Positions 8,550-20,488 of a stretch of DNA of 64,000 nucleotides are shown piece by piece; the first letter of the stretch is position 1, and each line of letters starts with the position of its first letter. Below the pieces are notes generated by a model. The model worked only from the letters and a program-made list of their open reading frames with translations, searched no databases and had not been told where the DNA came from. The stretch lies in the NCBI RefSeq assembly GCF_025148125.1, contig NZ_CP102267.1, forward strand, positions 3,544,501-3,608,500, read 5' to 3'. The position numbers and the translations under genes are program-made. This DNA is from Blautia wexlerae DSM 19850. Lineage in GTDB: Bacteria; Bacillota; Clostridia; Lachnospirales; Lachnospiraceae.

Positions 8550-8814
8550 CGAATCATGAAAGCTTATCTCAGCCTATAATGAAAATAGGATACTGACTCC
8601 ACTACTTTTTTCACTTCTCTTTTTGCCTTACAATAGTCTTAGGCAGGATTAAGTTTGATTGCACCTTGGAGGATTTGCACCCCGTTTGTCAACGTAAATG
8701 ATTTGCCCTTGAGCACAGCATATTGTCGCACCTTTTATGAATAGCACGAGTAGCAAAGTCCGTATTATCTCGGGCAAATCTCCTGCCAATTCTATAGTAA
8801 AGGAGTTGTTCTGT
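8550..8814 (+). other. 5' non-coding part of IS110 element, possible bridge-RNA region
   Basis: About 265 bp without a gene precede the transposase. In IS110-group elements the bridge (seek) RNA that guides target choice is encoded in this position. I can see no exact element end. The identity of the RNA is inference from family knowledge. Confidence 0.35.
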
Positions 8815-10053
8815 ATGAAAGACCTTCTGGAAATTTCCTGTGGACTGGATGTCCACAAAGAAAAAATTGTTGCATGTATCCTGACTGGTCCTCTGGGCAA
8901 GCCAACCCGTTCTGAAATCCGTGAGTTTTCTACATTGATTCCGGATATGATAGCATTACGGAATTGGATCGTTTCTAAAAACTGCCATCATGTAGCTATG
9001 GAAAGCACCGGTATCTATTGGATGCCGATTTATGAAATACTGGAGGATGCTTTCTCTGGTGACATTACCCTGCTTGTTGTAAATGCACGCCATATGAAAA
9101 ATGTTCCTGGCAAAAAGACCGATATGCGGGATTCCGAATGGATTTCCACCTTGCTTCGCGCCGGACTTTTGAACGGAAGTTTTATTCCCGAAAAAAGGAT
9201 TCGGGAATTCCGCGATCTAAATCGTTACCGTAAGAGTGTCATCCGCGATATTACGTCACAGAAGAACAGGATTGAGAAATTTTTACAAAGTTCCGGCTTC
9301 CGTCTATCATCCTTTATTTCTGATATTTTTGGCGCTTCGGGTAGAAACATCATTCTGCATTTAGTTGAACATGGGCAGATTGATAAAACTGCTTTAGATT
9401 CTTGTCTCAAAACCAAGACCAGAAACCGTATTGATGAAATTCTCATGTCCGTGAACGGAACACTGTCAGAACACCAAAAGGCATTTTTAAGGATTCTCAT
9501 GACTCATTATGATTCTTTAAAGAAACATCTTGCTGAAATTGAAACGAGTCTCGAGGAAGATATGGCTCCATTTGCCCTGCAGGTTGAGCAGTTGAATAGC
9601 ATCTATGGAATAAGCACAACTGCTTCCTGTGCAATTATTGCTGAAATCGGTATTGATATGAAGCCGTTTAAAACTGCGGAACACATCTGCTCATGGGCCG
9701 GTTTGTGCCCAGGTAATAACGAAAGTGCTGGAAAACGAAAAAGCACCTCTGTCACAAAAGGCAATCCTTACATAAAAAGTATGCTCTGCGAAATTGCCTG
9801 GGTGATTGCAGGGAAACGCAACACTTATCTTTCGGCATGGTACTGGAGAATCAAACAGAAAAAAGGAGCCAAAAAAGCGATTGTCGCACTTGCCCGAAAA
9901 CTTCTTGTCATCATCTACACAATGTTAAAACAAGGAACTCTATTTGACGAATCCTGTTTTGAAACAAGACGTAAGCACTGTGAACAAAAACAGCTTTCTC
10001 GTTATATACGGGAATTGGAAAAACATGGTTATCATGTGGAAGCTCAAAGCTAG
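8815..10053 (+). CDS. IS110-family transposase (DEDD recombinase)
   Basis: A 412-residue intact transposase. The N-terminal RuvC-like DEDD domain shows GLDVHKEKIVACIL, the glutamate in AMESTGIYW, and TDMRDSEWI. A coiled linker follows, and then the C-terminal transposase_20 domain with IYGISTTASCAIIAEIG and SWAGLCPGNNES, including the likely catalytic serine. The start at 8815 has AAGGAG nine bases upstream. No inverted repeats are expected for this family. It lies in the gap between the GC-rich frame at 8244 and the first sigma-like module. Confidence 0.92.
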   Translation: MKDLLEISCGLDVHKEKIVACILTGPLGKPTRSEIREFSTLIPDMIALRNWIVSKNCHHVAMESTGIYWMPIYEILEDAFSGDITLLVVNARHMKNVPGKKTDMRDSEWISTLLRAGLLNGSFIPEKRIREFRDLNRYRKSVIRDITSQKNRIEKFLQSSGFRLSSFISDIFGASGRNIILHLVEHGQIDKTALDSCLKTKTRNRIDEILMSVNGTLSEHQKAFLRILMTHYDSLKKHLAEIETSLEEDMAPFALQVEQLNSIYGISTTASCAIIAEIGIDMKPFKTAEHICSWAGLCPGNNESAGKRKSTSVTKGNPYIKSMLCEIAWVIAGKRNTYLSAWYWRIKQKKGAKKAIVALARKLLVIIYTMLKQGTLFDESCFETRRKHCEQKQLSRYIRELEKHGYHVEAQS

Positions 10054-10271: not shown

Positions 10272-10685
10272 TCAAAAATATTTTACAAGCTGCTTTAATC
10301 CACGGCGGATACTGTCTCGGACACGGCTTGGGTCTACACCTTCTACTTCGGCAATTTCATTTACCGTCATTCCCAGATAGTATCGGGCATAAATTCGCTT
10401 TGCCTGTTTCTCCGGCAGCTTCATCACAGCGGCATAGACCTGCTCCTGAAACTGTTTTTCCTCCAGAAGCATCTCCGGCGTTTGCGGCTTCAACAGCACT
10501 GCATTTTCAATGCCATTCTCGCAATCCAGAGAATACTGGGCCTTGTAGCGATACATCTTTCGCTCATACGCAGCCTCCGCACGTTCAGCTGCTCGAATAG
10601 TTTCCATTACTTCCTCTGTCACATCTATAAAAAAGTCTGTTGGATAAACATCAGGATAAAGTTCCCGAAGGTTAATTTTCTTCAT
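10272..10685 (-). CDS. Sigma-70 region-4-like regulator, module copy 1
   Basis: A 137-residue protein starting MKKINLRELYPDVYP after GGAGGTACATA. The C-terminal 55 residues form a sigma-70 region 4 type helix-turn-helix (LPEKQAKRIYARYYLGMTVN, EIAEVEGVDPSRVRDSIRRG); region 2 is missing, so it is not a complete sigma factor. Small proteins of this type accompany accessory genes in Tn916/Tn1549-like elements. It is the first of three collinear copies (see 13422 and 19623), each downstream of a cargo block. Its leader has the same hairpins as the others, but the leader ORF is broken. Confidence 0.85.
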   Translation of the reverse strand: MKKINLRELYPDVYPTDFFIDVTEEVMETIRAAERAEAAYERKMYRYKAQYSLDCENGIENAVLLKPQTPEMLLEEKQFQEQVYAAVMKLPEKQAKRIYARYYLGMTVNEIAEVEGVDPSRVRDSIRRGLKQLVKYF

Positions 10686-10691
10686 TATGTA

Positions 10692-10737
10692 CCTCCATTT
10701 CGATTCACGGGTGATTGACGGGTGAATCGAATGGAGG
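10692..10737 (-). promoter_or_regulatory. Ribosome-site-sequestering hairpin before sigma-like gene, copy 1
   Basis: CCTCCAT plus TCGATTCAC upstream pairs with GTGAATCGA plus ATGGAGG (one bulged A), burying the GGAGG ribosome site of the gene in a stem of about 16 bp with a 13-base loop. Confidence 0.65.
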
Positions 10738-10786
10738 CGGGGACCGACACCGGCAGACAACCGGATCATCTCCGAAAAAAAAGCAA

Positions 10787-10822
10787 CAAAAAACGCCAGA
10801 TTTCCGTAATGGAAAACTGGCG
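10787..10822 (-). terminator. Leader terminator (attenuator), module copy 1
   Basis: CGCCAGTTTTCC and GGAAATCTGGCG form a stem with one mismatch, followed on the minus strand by TTTTTTG. It corresponds base for base in position to 13944 and 20145. Confidence 0.65.
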
Positions 10823-10850
10823 CACCAAGAACAGCCACGATTGTACTTAA

Positions 10851-10958
10851 TTACACGGAACGATAATGCCGATGCAATGCAAAACTTACCCGGAGGAGGA
10901 ACTATACTTTTTTTAGCTGGTGCAGGATATTAGAACTACGAAAAAGTAAAATGGACAT
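10851..10958 (-). pseudogene. Leader ORF of module copy 1, broken by an in-frame stop
   Basis: The frame has the same 36-codon span as the intact copies, starting MSILLFRSSNILHQLKKV, but codon 19 is TAG where the others have TTG. Later codons still match (LLR, RHYRS). The product is therefore 18 residues at most. Confidence 0.55.
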
Positions 10959-10981
10959 GGCGGCATCCTCCTGTTACCGCC
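10959..10981 (-). promoter_or_regulatory. Hairpin presenting AGGAGG in its loop, module copy 1
   Basis: GGCGGTA and TGCCGCC pair (one G-U) around ACAGGAGGA; the stem ends exactly at the leader ATG. Confidence 0.6.
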
Positions 10982-11031
10982 GTACCAGATTTCAATGTAT
11001 AGAATCATTTTTGTGTCTTAAACGCAATGAA

Positions 11032-11061
11032 GCGGCGGTCTTGATTTCTCAAAACCGCCGC
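11032..11061 (-). terminator. Hairpin downstream of the ABC-F gene
   Basis: GCGGCGGTTTTGA and TCAAGACCGCCGC pair around four bases. The T-run is weak here compared with the matching hairpins at 14174 and 20367. A second hairpin with an A-rich loop (ACGG...CCGT) precedes it at about 11094-11133. Confidence 0.5.
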
Positions 11062-13198: not shown

Positions 13199-13309
13199 CG
13201 CTTTGAAACAGGCCAGAGAGGAAAAGTGATTTTGGCAAAGCTACTGCTTGAAAAACCAGATGTATTGCTATTAGATGAGCCGACAAATTTTCTTGATAAA
13301 GATCATGTT
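13199..13309 (+). pseudogene. Inverted fragment of an ABC-F gene
   Basis: Positions 13222-13309 are an exact 88-bp reverse complement of 12109-12196 inside the ABC-F gene. They encode the first-cassette Walker B region (LLLDEPTNFLDKDH) on the opposite strand. A further dozen bases on the left match with two changes. No other part of the gene is present. It marks a past inversion or recombination next to module copy 2. Confidence 0.75.
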
Positions 13310-13364
13310 TCTTCACTCAAAGATAGCTTTACAAAATACACCTCTAAGGCTACTACAATAGGTA

Positions 13365-13407
13365 GGGCGCAAGGTCTTATGCAGAAGCACTTTGAGACCT
13401 TGCGTCC
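13365..13407 (-). terminator. Hairpin downstream of sigma-like gene, copy 2
   Basis: GGGCGCAAGGTCT and AGACCTTGCGTCC pair (one mismatch) around 17 bases; a related hairpin follows copy 3 at 19565. The T-run is weak. Confidence 0.45.
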
Positions 13408-13421
13408 TCTGTTATTCTACC

Positions 13422-13835
13422 CTAAAAATACTTTGCCAGCTGCTTCAGACCACGCCGGATACTGTCACGGATACGGCTTGGATCTACACCTTCTACTTCG
13501 GCAATTTCATTTACCGTCATTCCCAGATAGTATCGGGCATAGATCCGCTTGGCCTGCTTCTCCGGCAGAGCCATCACTGCGGCATAAAGCTTCTCCCGCA
13601 GCTGCTTTTCCTCCAGAAGCATTTCCGGTGTCTGGGGCTTCGTCAGAATCGCATTTTCAATGCCATTGTCACAGTCCAAGGAGTAATGCGCTTTATAGCG
13701 ATACATCCTCCGGTCATAGGCAGCTTCTGCACGCTCGGCAGCTCGGATCGTCTCCAGCACATCTTCGGTTACTTCTACAAAGTGATCGTTTTTGTAAACA
13801 TCGGGATATAAGTCCTTAAGATTGACTTTCTTCAT
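13422..13835 (-). CDS. Sigma-70 region-4-like regulator, module copy 2
   Basis: A 137-residue protein, MKKVNLKDLYPDVYKNDHFV onward, with GGAGGTACATA before the ATG. The middle (ETIRAAERAEAAYDRRMYRY) is helical and charged. The end is the region-4 type helix-turn-helix LGMTVNEIAEVEGVDPSRIR. It lacks the core-binding region 2, so it may act as a DNA-binding activator or need a partner. It is collinear without gaps with copies 1 and 3 and lies downstream of the permease gene at 14272, from which it is separated by terminators and the leader ORF. Confidence 0.85.
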   Translation of the reverse strand: MKKVNLKDLYPDVYKNDHFVEVTEDVLETIRAAERAEAAYDRRMYRYKAHYSLDCDNGIENAILTKPQTPEMLLEEKQLREKLYAAVMALPEKQAKRIYARYYLGMTVNEIAEVEGVDPSRIRDSIRRGLKQLAKYF

Positions 13836-13841
13836 TATGTA

Positions 13842-13887
13842 CCTCCATTTCGATTCACGGGCGATTGACGAGTGAATCGAAAGGAGG
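13842..13887 (-). promoter_or_regulatory. Ribosome-site-sequestering hairpin before sigma-like gene, copy 2
   Basis: CCTCC and TTTCGATTCAC upstream pair with GTGAATCGAAA and GGAGG downstream, with a single bulged base and a 13-base loop. The AGG-rich ribosome site is fully paired. Confidence 0.7.
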
Positions 13888-13934
13888 CGGAGATCGGCAT
13901 CGACATACTTCGGGAGCTTTCCCGAAAAATCGAC

Positions 13935-13971
13935 AATAAAAAGCGCCAGCTCCCCGCAATGGGAAACTGGC
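13935..13971 (-). terminator. Leader terminator (attenuator), module copy 2
   Basis: GCCAGTTTCCC and GGGGAGCTGGC form an 11-bp stem with two G-U pairs, followed by GCTTTTTATT. It begins 29 bp after the leader ORF stop and ends about 100 bp before the sigma-like gene. Confidence 0.75.
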
Positions 13972-14000
13972 ACAGCAAAAATGACTATGATTCTTCTGTT

Positions 14001-14108
14001 TTAGTTGGAATGATAATGCCGATAGGTAGTCATATCTCCCCGGAGGAGGAGCAAGGATTTTTTTAATTGGTGTAGCTCATGGCTATTGTGAATGACGAAA
14101 ATTGACAT
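14001..14108 (-). CDS. Hidden 35-residue leader ORF, module copy 2
   Basis: MSIFVIHNSHELHQLKK, then SLLLLRGDMTTYRHYHSN, begins eight bases after AGGAGG. Copy 3 (20202) encodes nearly the same peptide, with synonymous changes at two leucine codons and three amino-acid changes, a pattern of coding constraint. The peptide has no family I recognise. CTCCTCCTCC inside the frame is complementary to the ribosome site of its own start. It may be a regulatory leader peptide or a tiny functional protein. Confidence 0.6.
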   Translation of the reverse strand: MSIFVIHNSHELHQLKKSLLLLRGDMTTYRHYHSN

Positions 14109-14132
14109 GGCGGTATCCTCCTATATACCGCC
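14109..14132 (-). promoter_or_regulatory. Hairpin presenting AGGAGG in its loop, module copy 2
   Basis: GGCGGTAT and ATACCGCC make a perfect 8-bp stem around ATAGGAGG, ending exactly at the leader ATG. The ribosome site sits in the loop, so initiation should depend on this fold. Confidence 0.7.
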
Positions 14133-14163
14133 CTCCTGATTGCATAAGCATCGGTCCGAAAAG

Positions 14164-14202
14164 CAAAAAGAAACGGCGGCTCTGATTTTCTCAAAGCCGC
14201 CG
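14164..14202 (-). terminator. Terminator of the 14272-15902 operon
   Basis: CGGCGGCTTTGA and TCAGAGCCGCCG pair around five bases, followed by TTTCTTTTT. A second hairpin with an A-rich loop (GACGGC...GCCGTC) lies just upstream at about 14232-14263. Confidence 0.75.
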
Positions 14203-14271
14203 CTTCATAGGCGCGTGGAAATGTGTCTGCTGTACGACGGCTTTTTTTCTTTTGCCGTCGTCCGGCAGGAT

Positions 14272-19553: not shown

Positions 19554-19564
19554 GTGCGTAGATA

Positions 19565-19608
19565 GGGCGCAAGGCCCTGTGCCAGAAGCACTTTGAGACC
19601 TTGCCCCC
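19565..19608 (-). terminator. Hairpin downstream of sigma-like gene, copy 3
   Basis: GGGCGCAAGG pairs with CCTTGCCCCC; counterpart of the hairpin at 13365. Confidence 0.4.
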
Positions 19609-19622
19609 CTTGTAATTCTATC

Positions 19623-20036
19623 CTAAAAATACTTTGCCAGTTGCTTCAGACCACGCCGGATGCTGTCACTGACACGGCTTGAGTCTACACCCTCCGCTAC
19701 TGCTATCTCGCTCACACGCATACCCAGGTAATACCGGGCATAGATCCGCTTGGCCTGCTTCTCCGGCAGAGCCATCACAGCGGCATAGAGCTGCTCCCGC
19801 AGCTGCTTTTCCTCCAGAAGCATTTCCGGTGTCTGGGGCTTCATCAGGATCGCATTTTCAATGCCGTTGTCGCAGTCCAGGGAGTAGTTCGCCTTATAGC
19901 GATACATCCTCCGGTCATAGGCGGCCTCTGCACGCTCAGCGGCTCGGATCGTCTCCAGCACATCTTCAGTTACTTCTACCAAGTAATCATTTTTGTAAAC
20001 ATCGGGATATAAGTCCCTAAGATTGACTTTCTTCAT
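19623..20036 (-). CDS. Sigma-70 region-4-like regulator, module copy 3
   Basis: A 137-residue protein, close to copy 2 over its first 100 residues, with the same GGAGGTACATA start. The recognition region differs (LGMRVSEIAVAEGVDSSRVS where copies 1 and 2 have LGMTVNEIAEVEGVDPSR), so the DNA target may differ. The DNA around that patch also changes sharply, as if a segment was exchanged. It lies downstream of the MFS pump gene behind the same leader structures. Confidence 0.85.
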   Translation of the reverse strand: MKKVNLRDLYPDVYKNDYLVEVTEDVLETIRAAERAEAAYDRRMYRYKANYSLDCDNGIENAILMKPQTPEMLLEEKQLREQLYAAVMALPEKQAKRIYARYYLGMRVSEIAVAEGVDSSRVSDSIRRGLKQLAKYF

Positions 20037-20042
20037 TATGTA

Positions 20043-20088
20043 CCTCCATTTCGATTCACGGGCGATTGATGAGCGAATCGAAAGGAGG
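20043..20088 (-). promoter_or_regulatory. Ribosome-site-sequestering hairpin before sigma-like gene, copy 3
   Basis: CCTCC and TTTCGATTCGC pair with GTGAATCGAAA and GGAGG; the one changed base (G for A) keeps a G-U pair. Confidence 0.7.
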
Positions 20089-20136
20089 AGGGGATCGACA
20101 GTGACATACTTCGGGAGCTTTCCCAAAAAATCGACA

Positions 20137-20173
20137 GCAAAAAACGCCAGCTCCCCGCAATGGGAAACTGGCG
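20137..20173 (-). terminator. Leader terminator (attenuator), module copy 3
   Basis: CGCCAGTTTCCC and GGGGAGCTGGCG form a 12-bp stem followed by TTTTTTGC. Confidence 0.75.
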
Positions 20174-20201
20174 CAACAAAAATGACTATGATTCTTCTGT
20201 T

Positions 20202-20309
20202 TTAGTTGGAATGATAATGCCGATAGGTAGTCATACCTCCCCGGAGGAGGGGCAAGGCTTTTTTTAGTTGGTGTAACTCATGGCTATTGTGAATGACGAA
20301 AATTGACAT
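20202..20309 (-). CDS. Hidden 35-residue leader ORF, module copy 3
   Basis: MSIFVIHNSHELHQLKK, then ALPLLRGGMTTYRHYHSN. Compared with copy 2, changes are S18A, L20P and D25G plus silent leucine-codon changes, and no frameshift. The ribosome site is in the loop of the hairpin at 20310. Function unknown; see the copy 2 entry. Confidence 0.6.
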   Translation of the reverse strand: MSIFVIHNSHELHQLKKALPLLRGGMTTYRHYHSN

Positions 20310-20333
20310 GGCGGTATCCTCCTATATACCGCC
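20310..20333 (-). promoter_or_regulatory. Hairpin presenting AGGAGG in its loop, module copy 3
   Basis: Identical to the copy at 14109: perfect 8-bp stem GGCGGTAT/ATACCGCC around ATAGGAGG, ending at the ATG. Confidence 0.7.
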
Positions 20334-20356
20334 CTCCTGATCGCATGAGCATCGTC

Positions 20357-20401
20357 GAAAAAGAAACGGCGGCTCTGAAATATGTTATTTCAAAACCGCC
20401 G
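20357..20401 (-). terminator. Terminator of the AraC-GNAT/MFS operon
   Basis: CGGCGGTTTTGAAAT and ATTTCAGAGCCGCCG pair around five bases, followed by TTTCTTTTT. A second hairpin (CAACGG...CCGTTG, A-rich loop) lies just upstream at about 20446-20475. Confidence 0.75.
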
Positions 20402-20488
20402 TAAGGCCACTGTATTTTGTTTTGGCGCATAAATACCCAGCCGCCGAAACAACGGTTTTTTTTATTCCCGTTGGGCGACTTTTTTCTT

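Follow-up and report, generated by a model that had tools for sequence, protein, structure and literature searches.

The window analysed here comprises 64,000 nucleotides (nt) from Blautia wexlerae DSM 19850 (contig NZ_CP102267.1, positions 3,544,501 to 3,608,500 of the forward strand) and contains three copies of a regulatory module, each ending in a gene for a sigma-70 region-4-like protein. The copies are all on the minus strand, at 10981 to 10272 (M1), 14132 to 13422 (M2) and 20333 to 19623 (M3), and share the same order of elements: an inverted repeat with a U tail (IR2; tail weak in M1), a hairpin with a Shine-Dalgarno sequence (SD) in its loop (P1), a short leader open reading frame (ORF), an intrinsic terminator (T), a hairpin burying the SD of the regulator gene (P3), and the gene for the 137-residue protein. 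An earlier account made from the letters alone (hereafter the sequence-only reading) had reported this order at the same three places. The order stood, but its description as gapless did not quite hold, the first hairpin of M1 being one base shorter than in the other copies; the terminator-like inverted repeat IR2 upstream of each leader had been overlooked, as had, in M2, a further hairpin with an A-rich loop (IR1). M1 follows an ABC-F gene, M2 a lantibiotic-type ABC transporter and M3 an MFS gene. Comparison of the copies confirmed that bases differ while stems are maintained. The M2 leader folded more stably than 100 of 100 shuffled sequences (z -5.75), and among leaders selected with no requirement for a stem, 64 of 70 had at least 8 pairs at P1, compared with 15 of 210 shuffled sequences. 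No Rfam family matched the modules above its gathering score, the best weak match being RF03532 on M2 (26.6 bits against a threshold of 100). The features were as follows.

M2, 14234..14261, minus strand: inverted repeat with an A-rich loop (IR1), identified by eye; not universal in relatives.
M2, 14174..14203, minus strand: IR2, terminator-like inverted repeat ending the cargo unit, found by an independent terminator scan.
M2, 14109..14135, minus strand: P1 hairpin, with SD GGAGG in the loop (14121-14117) and the leader ATG directly past the stem; from folding and the stem count against shuffles.
M2, 14001..14108, minus strand: leader ORF in frame 0, 35 residues plus stop; coding signal (third-position excess) only before the slip site.
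M2, 14058..14064, minus strand: slip site A AAA AAA (TTA AAA AAA).
M2, 13855..14058, minus strand: -1-frame ORF of 67 codons, ILAPPPG...CRSPPPFDSLVNRP; stop 19 nt ahead of the sigma start.
M2, 13944..13973, minus strand: intrinsic terminator T, within the -1 ORF; also in the independent terminator scan.
M2, 13885..13899, minus strand: C-R-S-P-P codons, of the RxPP stalling motif type.
M2, 13836..13887, minus strand: P3 hairpin burying the SD of the sigma-like gene; from covariation and a folding model.
M2, 13422..13835, minus strand: sigma-70 region-4-like protein, 137 amino acids; PF08281 (E 9.5e-10), C-terminal domain resembling sigma region 4.
M1, 11033..11061, minus strand: IR2, weak U tail.
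M1, 10959..10985, minus strand: P1 hairpin.
M1, 10902..10958, minus strand: leader ORF in frame 0, 18 codons plus stop.
M1, 10908..10914, minus strand: slip site A AAA AAA.
M1, 10705..10908, minus strand: -1-frame ORF of 67 codons with CRSPP.
M1, 10794..10823, minus strand: terminator T; absent from the independent terminator scan.
M1, 10735..10749, minus strand: C-R-S-P-P codons.
M1, 10686..10737, minus strand: P3 hairpin; opens least in the folding model.
M1, 10272..10685, minus strand: sigma-70 region-4-like protein; PF08281 (E 1.4e-10).
M3, 20367..20402, minus strand: IR2, terminator-like inverted repeat, found by the independent terminator scan.
M3, 20310..20336, minus strand: P1 hairpin.
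M3, 20202..20309, minus strand: leader ORF in frame 0, 35 residues plus stop.
M3, 20259..20265, minus strand: slip site A AAA AAA.
M3, 20056..20259, minus strand: -1-frame ORF of 67 codons with CRSPP.
M3, 20145..20174, minus strand: terminator T; also in the independent terminator scan.
M3, 20086..20100, minus strand: C-R-S-P-P codons.
M3, 20037..20088, minus strand: P3 hairpin, from the folding model.
M3, 19623..20036, minus strand: sigma-70 region-4-like protein; PF08281 (E 2.8e-8).

Related loci (L numbers) were collected by pattern, DNA and protein searches. Nine places resembling the module were found in the window's own genome (G000, 4.69 Mb). With two candidates scored per genome, a search with leader DNA was positive in 20 of the 299 genomes from the same family and in 2 of the 391 from the class, the own genome being counted in both; searches with the sigma-like protein were positive in 34 of the 299 and, using the L097 protein as query, in 23 of the 391. 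A pattern scan of named genomes yielded at least 120 leader stretches, and parsing gave at least 115 accepted leaders among L104-L243. All loci together comprised at least 97 unique leader regions in 37 clusters, two of them spurious, with members including records of Lachnospiraceae, Oscillospiraceae, Blautia, Faecalibacterium, Hungatella and Gemmiger. DNA searches gave one weak phage match in phage records and no match in plasmid records; 67 stretches from a pattern scan of viral contigs were by inspection mostly chance, the L097 match being useful. Leaders found by pattern are biased, as the search pattern fixes bases -9 to +7 around the slip site. A set collected through the sigma-like protein, and so free of the leader pattern, served as a check: of 60 loci, 57 with an N-terminal hit, 53 were unique after removal of four duplicates.

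The conserved reading frame was found to change at the run of seven A. In frame 0, conservation reaches no further than AAA AAA; this frame stops one codon past the slip site, after a peptide ending in KKA, in L014, L017, L021 and many others, and after 18 codons in M1, and the frame-0 peptides of relatives vary widely outside [LS]KKA. New leaders from the sigma-found set, for example VRAAICSSSKKA and VFIFNSHTPPNFYSSKKA, have only the [LS]-K-K-A end in common with others. The 36-codon frame of the sequence-only reading therefore applies to M2 and M3 but neither to M1 nor to many relatives, and it had to be abandoned as a hidden conserved ORF, for past the seven-A run the conserved frame is -1. 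Here a long open frame carries the shared residues S-[VI]-A-P-P-P-G ... G-[AV]-F ... C-R-S-P-P. In slip loci this frame opens only a few codons ahead of the slip site, so that a ribosome would have to shift in order to read its A-P-P-P-G part.

Codon-position counts from windows outside the search pattern gave the same picture. Three of the 37 clusters were dropped and two duplicate windows removed from the remaining 34, leaving 32 distinct leaders, in which substitutions at codon positions 1/2/3 numbered 1736/1116/2343 in frame 0 ahead of the slip (-36 to -9) and, in the -1 frame past it (+8 to +38), 1586/1425/2483; on both sides, position 3 had the highest count in 300 of 300 bootstraps. For the whole -1 ORF, 34 leaders of the M2 class were used; selection required a -1 frame of 67 codons that includes RSPP, which by itself accounts for the absence of -1 stops but not for the codon-position counts. 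Substitutions amounted to 9369/9799/12729 at positions 1/2/3, with the strongest third-position excess in the linker (1781/2238/4109), and synonymous codon differences numbered 4804 in the -1 frame against 2278 and 2859 in the other frames. In the sigma-found set, a slippery heptamer in the right phase (N-Y-A AAA AA(A/G)) with a -1 frame leading to RxPP was accepted in 24 of the 53 loci, out of 29 slip cases listed (L264, L276, L281, L293 and L297 were left out). In the slip loci inspected, the A run always lay in one phase with respect to frame 0, the preceding codon being TTA, CTA or TCA.

Of the 53 sigma-found loci, 46 had an in-frame RxPP motif at the appropriate position. Twenty-nine of these were the listed -1 shift cases, 13, including L249, were single-frame loci, defined by the same frame having its own start codon at least 60 nt before the motif, and four were neither; L292 and L293 by inspection have RAPP instead. 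CRSPP alone stands out in the sigma-found loci, the remaining peptide being variable. Over all collected loci, C-R-[SAG]-P-P at 54-73 nt before the start of an SD-bearing ORF of at least 60 amino acids was present in 83 unique cases, while 59 other orders of the same five residues gave 0-2 loci each. The Arg codons of the motif were CGC, CGT, CGA, CGG and once AGA (five) and the Ser codons TCC, TCT, TCA and once AGC (four), which favours a conserved peptide over a conserved RNA motif. At some loci the RxPP ORF continues well beyond the start of the next gene. RxPP (x being Gly, Ala, Ser or Pro) is known to arrest ribosomes. In ApdA/ApdP, RSPP still causes arrest in part; RSPP is strongly depleted from the proteomes of bacteria, and Bacillota show a particular reduction of RxPP (PMC12992588); Pro-tRNA occupies the A site behind the RAP motif (PMC10951233).

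The terminator proposed in the sequence-only reading was borne out: a G+C-rich hairpin with a U tract stands between leader and gene, its position being constant in 30 of the 35 clusters of leaders (37 less the two spurious) against 20 of 175 shuffles. In a count covering 44 of the 53 sigma-found loci, the interval 220-60 nt ahead of the regulator start held a terminator in 23 of the 24 slip loci (shuffle controls 4/120), in 11 of the 13 loci with a single frame (5/65) and in none of the seven lacking RxPP (0/35); by their upstream sequence, the loci without RxPP are mostly second or third genes of operons.

P3, taken as a helix of at least 7 pairs, was present in all 83 C-R-[SAG]-P-P loci. 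Compensatory changes, which the sequence-only reading had expected in the stems of other genomes, were found here: among 34 of 35 chosen examples, both sides had changed in 10 of 13 pairs, with 49 such cells against 12.7 +- 3.9 in shuffles. Cells were paired in 89.2% of cases against 30-57% in slid versions, and the observed value was reached by none of 500 shuffles on four of five measures and by two of 500 on the fifth. The CRSPP codons lie about 60 nt ahead of the regulator start. When the ribosome was modelled as a barrier to folding, the SD was open (probability at least 0.5) in none of the 83 loci with the P site four or more codons upstream of the motif, and in 15, 36, 41 and 20 of the 83 at codons -3, -2, -1 and 0. 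The folding model thus suggests that RxPP is sited so that a ribosome there would open the hairpin hiding the SD, with a strength that varies and is weak in M1.

The first SD-bearing ORF past the leader belonged to sigma-70 region-4-like clusters in 73 of 78 cases, representatives of which carry PF08281, as do all three window copies, in agreement with the sequence-only reading. The structure modelled for the M2 protein (eight sequences, mean pLDDT 77.7) has a C-terminal part that matched solved sigma region 4 domains such as 8jzt_C (58 columns at 0.9 A), and a Pfam search of the module proteins gave no sigma region 2 family; by these searches the regulator is a region-4-type protein. Four regulator types were distinguished, M2 and L097 (counted as one type, being 47% identical), L014, L009, and L242/L139. 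The last is 17-20% identical to M2, and the genes after it encode an HTH_16 protein and an HTH_17 protein resembling excisionases, a run that presumably corresponds to orf7-orf8-xis of Tn916. L147 has an XRE-type regulator in place of the sigma-like protein. The two sigma queries were matched at 68 of the 115 accepted leaders; at the rest the gene is of another type, the record ends or the gene has been spliced away.

Upstream proteins were surveyed for 43 of 45 representatives, the largest groups being FtsX-type proteins (9) and ABC-2 permeases (5). Among 25 of the 49 upstream families matched, hints of drugs that target the ribosome came only from single MFS and Cys-rich KTR proteins. A drug-related neighbour was thus found at M1, perhaps at M3, and not across the upstream representatives, so the suggestion of the sequence-only reading that a drug dealt with by the adjacent cargo provides the signal was not supported. 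The excisionase-like genes, a serine-recombinase-like ORF beside L097 (by eye) and the changing cargo suggest mobile elements, and the leader family apparently resides on such elements of gut-type Firmicutes. From the excisionase-like neighbours in one branch, the sigma-like regulator may turn on excision or transfer.

Element order, the switch of frame, the fixed T, the covarying P3 and the in-frame RxPP can be read from the sequences. On this basis we lean towards the interpretation that the leader is an attenuator gated by a -1 frameshift, in which T would be read through with the help of the ribosome and a stall at R-S-P-P would open the regulator start. Transcripts would probably arrive at the leader by read-through, and the ribosome would start at the P1 leader. 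Without a shift, it would meet the frame-0 stop one codon past the slip site or some 12-18 codons on, T would be free to fold and transcription would end. After a -1 shift, and in the cell perhaps only then, T would be passed, the ribosome following the polymerase through T and preventing its folding. On reaching R-S-P-P, the leading edge of the ribosome would enter the 5' arm of P3 and free the regulator SD, and the stall would keep P3 open long enough for translation of the sigma-like protein. The signal tuning shift or stall may be the state of translation (stress, EF-P, drugs), which is a guess. Of the RNA-controlled switch put forward in the sequence-only reading, control of the sigma-like gene by its leader is well supported by T and P3, but a switch made of RNA only is not, the gate likely being the -1 shift and the RxPP stall.

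A number of observations weigh against this interpretation. RSPP is a weaker motif than RAPP, the exchange of Ala for Ser keeping arrest only in part (PMC12992588), and ApdP A132S is counted among the stall-relieving variants in PMC10951233. At the exact stall position, only the 20 of 83 SDs noted above reached 0.5 in the folding model, with a median of 0.31, and the SD of M1 stayed near 0.07; a model letting upstream RNA pair gave a weaker effect, with an SD rise of at least 0.3 in 26 of 83 loci. The stretch from IR2 to the leader showed no evident promoter, so that the transcript must pass a terminator. The codon-position signal was weak or lay elsewhere within T and in the AT-rich stretch, where the -1 frame gave 2846/1969/2346. 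A hairpin past the slip site that might stimulate the slip (CGG[GA]-4 nt-UCCGG, by eye in many clusters) is short, with 4-5 pairs, and the same product would arise if RNA polymerase slipped on the seven A. L249 has six A plus G and is in the wrong frame, and no CRSPP was seen in the inspected members (L136, L242) of the branch with HTH_16 and excisionase-like genes. Internal starts in the -1 frame at least 60 nt before the motif occur in 11 of the 24 accepted slip loci, including M2, and make internal initiation possible at those loci. Finally, 13 of the 46 RxPP loci reach the motif in one continuous frame, and hence the shift is not required throughout the family. These single-frame relatives keep T (11 of 13), RxPP and P3, which we therefore regard as the core of the mechanism, with the shift as a gate added to it. 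One of them lies in the window's own genome at about 4287.2 kb (L286), its upstream ORF ending in RCRSPP.. and overlapping the sigma start.

One alternative is that RNA polymerase rather than the ribosome slips on the seven A and so yields the -1 peptide, with the rest of the mechanism unchanged. The seven-A homopolymer is indeed the common element, and one added A would give the same frame. However, the A run keeps its phase relative to frame 0 with TTA, CTA or TCA before it, as expected for a tandem-slip heptamer, and seven A are short for polymerase slippage; we consider this explanation unlikely. Somewhat less likely still is a plain attenuator of the erm/tet type, in which a drug would stall the frame-0 ribosome, the RNA would refold into an antiterminator and the -1 frame would be incidental. 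The modules do have the short leader peptide, the SD hairpin, the terminator and the buried start of such a system, and M1 adjoins an ABC-F gene, but the coding signal past the slip lies in the -1 frame, the frame-0 peptides diverge outside [LS]KKA, no common antiterminator helix was seen by eye across the clusters, and the largest cargo groups are ABC permeases. The conserved residues with synonymous change could also reflect a small protein with a function of its own, produced from the -1 or single frame, with T and P3 setting its level relative to the sigma-like protein; as only CRSPP stands out in the sigma-found loci, the product resembles an arrest peptide rather than a folded protein, and we hold this to be improbable. 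Translation of the CRSPP-bearing C-terminal part from the internal -1 starts, which would make a frameshift unnecessary, is very improbable, since 13 of those 24 slip loci lack any such start and coding signal in the -1 frame sets in at the slip, far upstream of the starts in the other 11. Equally improbable is that terminators and hairpins are non-regulatory debris of stacked insertion cassettes, as the truncation or splicing of L008, L175, L200 and L222 just past the leader might suggest, given that fixed spacing, covariation and the CRSPP control point to selection.

Two further ideas were dropped. A drug-sensing leader peptide had been considered for M2 and M3, whose leader peptide we take to resemble the ErmC leader; relatives do not keep this stretch. 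Pairing of a C-rich stretch with the leader SD was set aside as the main explanation, the stretch representing the A-P-P-P codons of the -1 frame with free third positions.

The preferred frameshift-gated attenuator combines traits of several described systems. In pyrBI attenuation of E. coli, the leader ORF overlaps the terminator and a ribosome close behind the polymerase prevents termination, the gate being polymerase pausing; the modules would share the block of an overlapping terminator by a closely following ribosome, with a frameshift as the gate. In the ermC leader, ribosomes shifted in the presence of telithromycin run into the spacer, unfold the RNA and open the next start (PMC5009743). 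The modules would resemble it in the shift within a leader ORF, the run-on and the unfolding of RNA to open the next start, but differ in that the shifted frame is a conserved coding sequence, passes through an intrinsic terminator and carries RxPP, and in that the controlled gene encodes a sigma-like regulator; a link to a drug is not supported. RAPP/RGPP peptides are described in S. lividans, two of them ahead of ECF sigma genes (PMC12992588, PMC10951233, PMC10987492). Like these and ApdA/ApdP, the modules have an upstream ORF with R-x-P-P near its end, at which a stall would open an SD-hiding hairpin; unlike them, they have RSPP, a predicted -1 shift in one branch, a terminator inside the ORF and an apparent location on mobile elements. 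At the copper upstream ORF CruR, a RAPP stall decides whether transcription continues (PMC9426467), a comparable coupling of an upstream-ORF stall to transcription, which there involves Rho and copper sensing and here would involve an intrinsic terminator and a frameshift. Tn916 keeps its transfer genes off until needed by terminators T1-T3 and the canT antiterminator (PMC11658703). It shares with the mechanism proposed here control by termination and antitermination, and the leaders of one branch stand ahead of a sigma-like, an HTH_16 and an excisionase-like gene; neither a frameshifted leader nor RxPP is described for Tn916 in the passages of that source examined.

In the literature examined, no description was found of a leader combining a shift, an intrinsic terminator and a stall, HQLKKA was not found, and CRSPP occurred only in papers unrelated by title. 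The case seems evenly balanced that the modules represent an undescribed class of attenuator in which a single -1 shift would set both transcription and translation, and by which elements of gut Firmicutes would hold four types of sigma-like regulator off until the ribosome reports a change, so that transfer would answer to the state of translation. If so, regulator genes on elements with transporter- and resistance-type cargo in gut bacteria would be controlled by ribosome slippage and stalling, through a sensor likely missed by annotation because its peptide lies in a shifted frame, and there would be a testable handle on when such elements activate. The RAPP-type arrest peptides would also gain a branch that depends on frameshifting, and the class would indicate that a terminator within a coding frame can serve as a logic gate. 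C-R-S-P-P together with a hairpin, 54-73 nt before a sigma-like gene, is a motif test applicable to any genome.

Several other features of the loci were recorded. L008, L175, L200, L222 and L237 are nearly or fully identical to other leaders until shortly past the slip site or T and then continue into unrelated DNA; these breakpoints are likely cassette exchange junctions. The upstream peptide of L261 is hydrophobic in appearance, by eye. The IR1 hairpin (14261-14234, minus strand, and in many relatives) has an A-rich loop, AAAAGAAAAAAA, partly complementary to the U tract of IR2. By eye IR1 is missing from L171, L225, L228 and L242, and a possible pairing of its loop with the U tract would not be universal among relatives. 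A long inverted repeat (GGGCGCAAGGTCT..AGACCTTGCG) lies 3' of the sigma-like gene at about 13360-13412 (M2) and 19560-19612 (M3), and not at M1. The sole RNA in the window above its gathering score is a uup RNA (Rfam RF03060, 62.6 bits) at 12971-12924 on the minus strand, ahead of the ABC-F gene, so that this cargo gene has its own described leader RNA. Beside the end of M2, at about 13226-13310 on the plus strand, an ABC-F-like coding fragment runs in the opposite direction, with residues nearly equal to those of the ABC-F gene (12690-11161). It is likely a recombination scar, and a similar fragment occurs in L007. Just past M1, at 8737-10053 on the plus strand, lies a gene for an IS110-type RNA-guided transposase.

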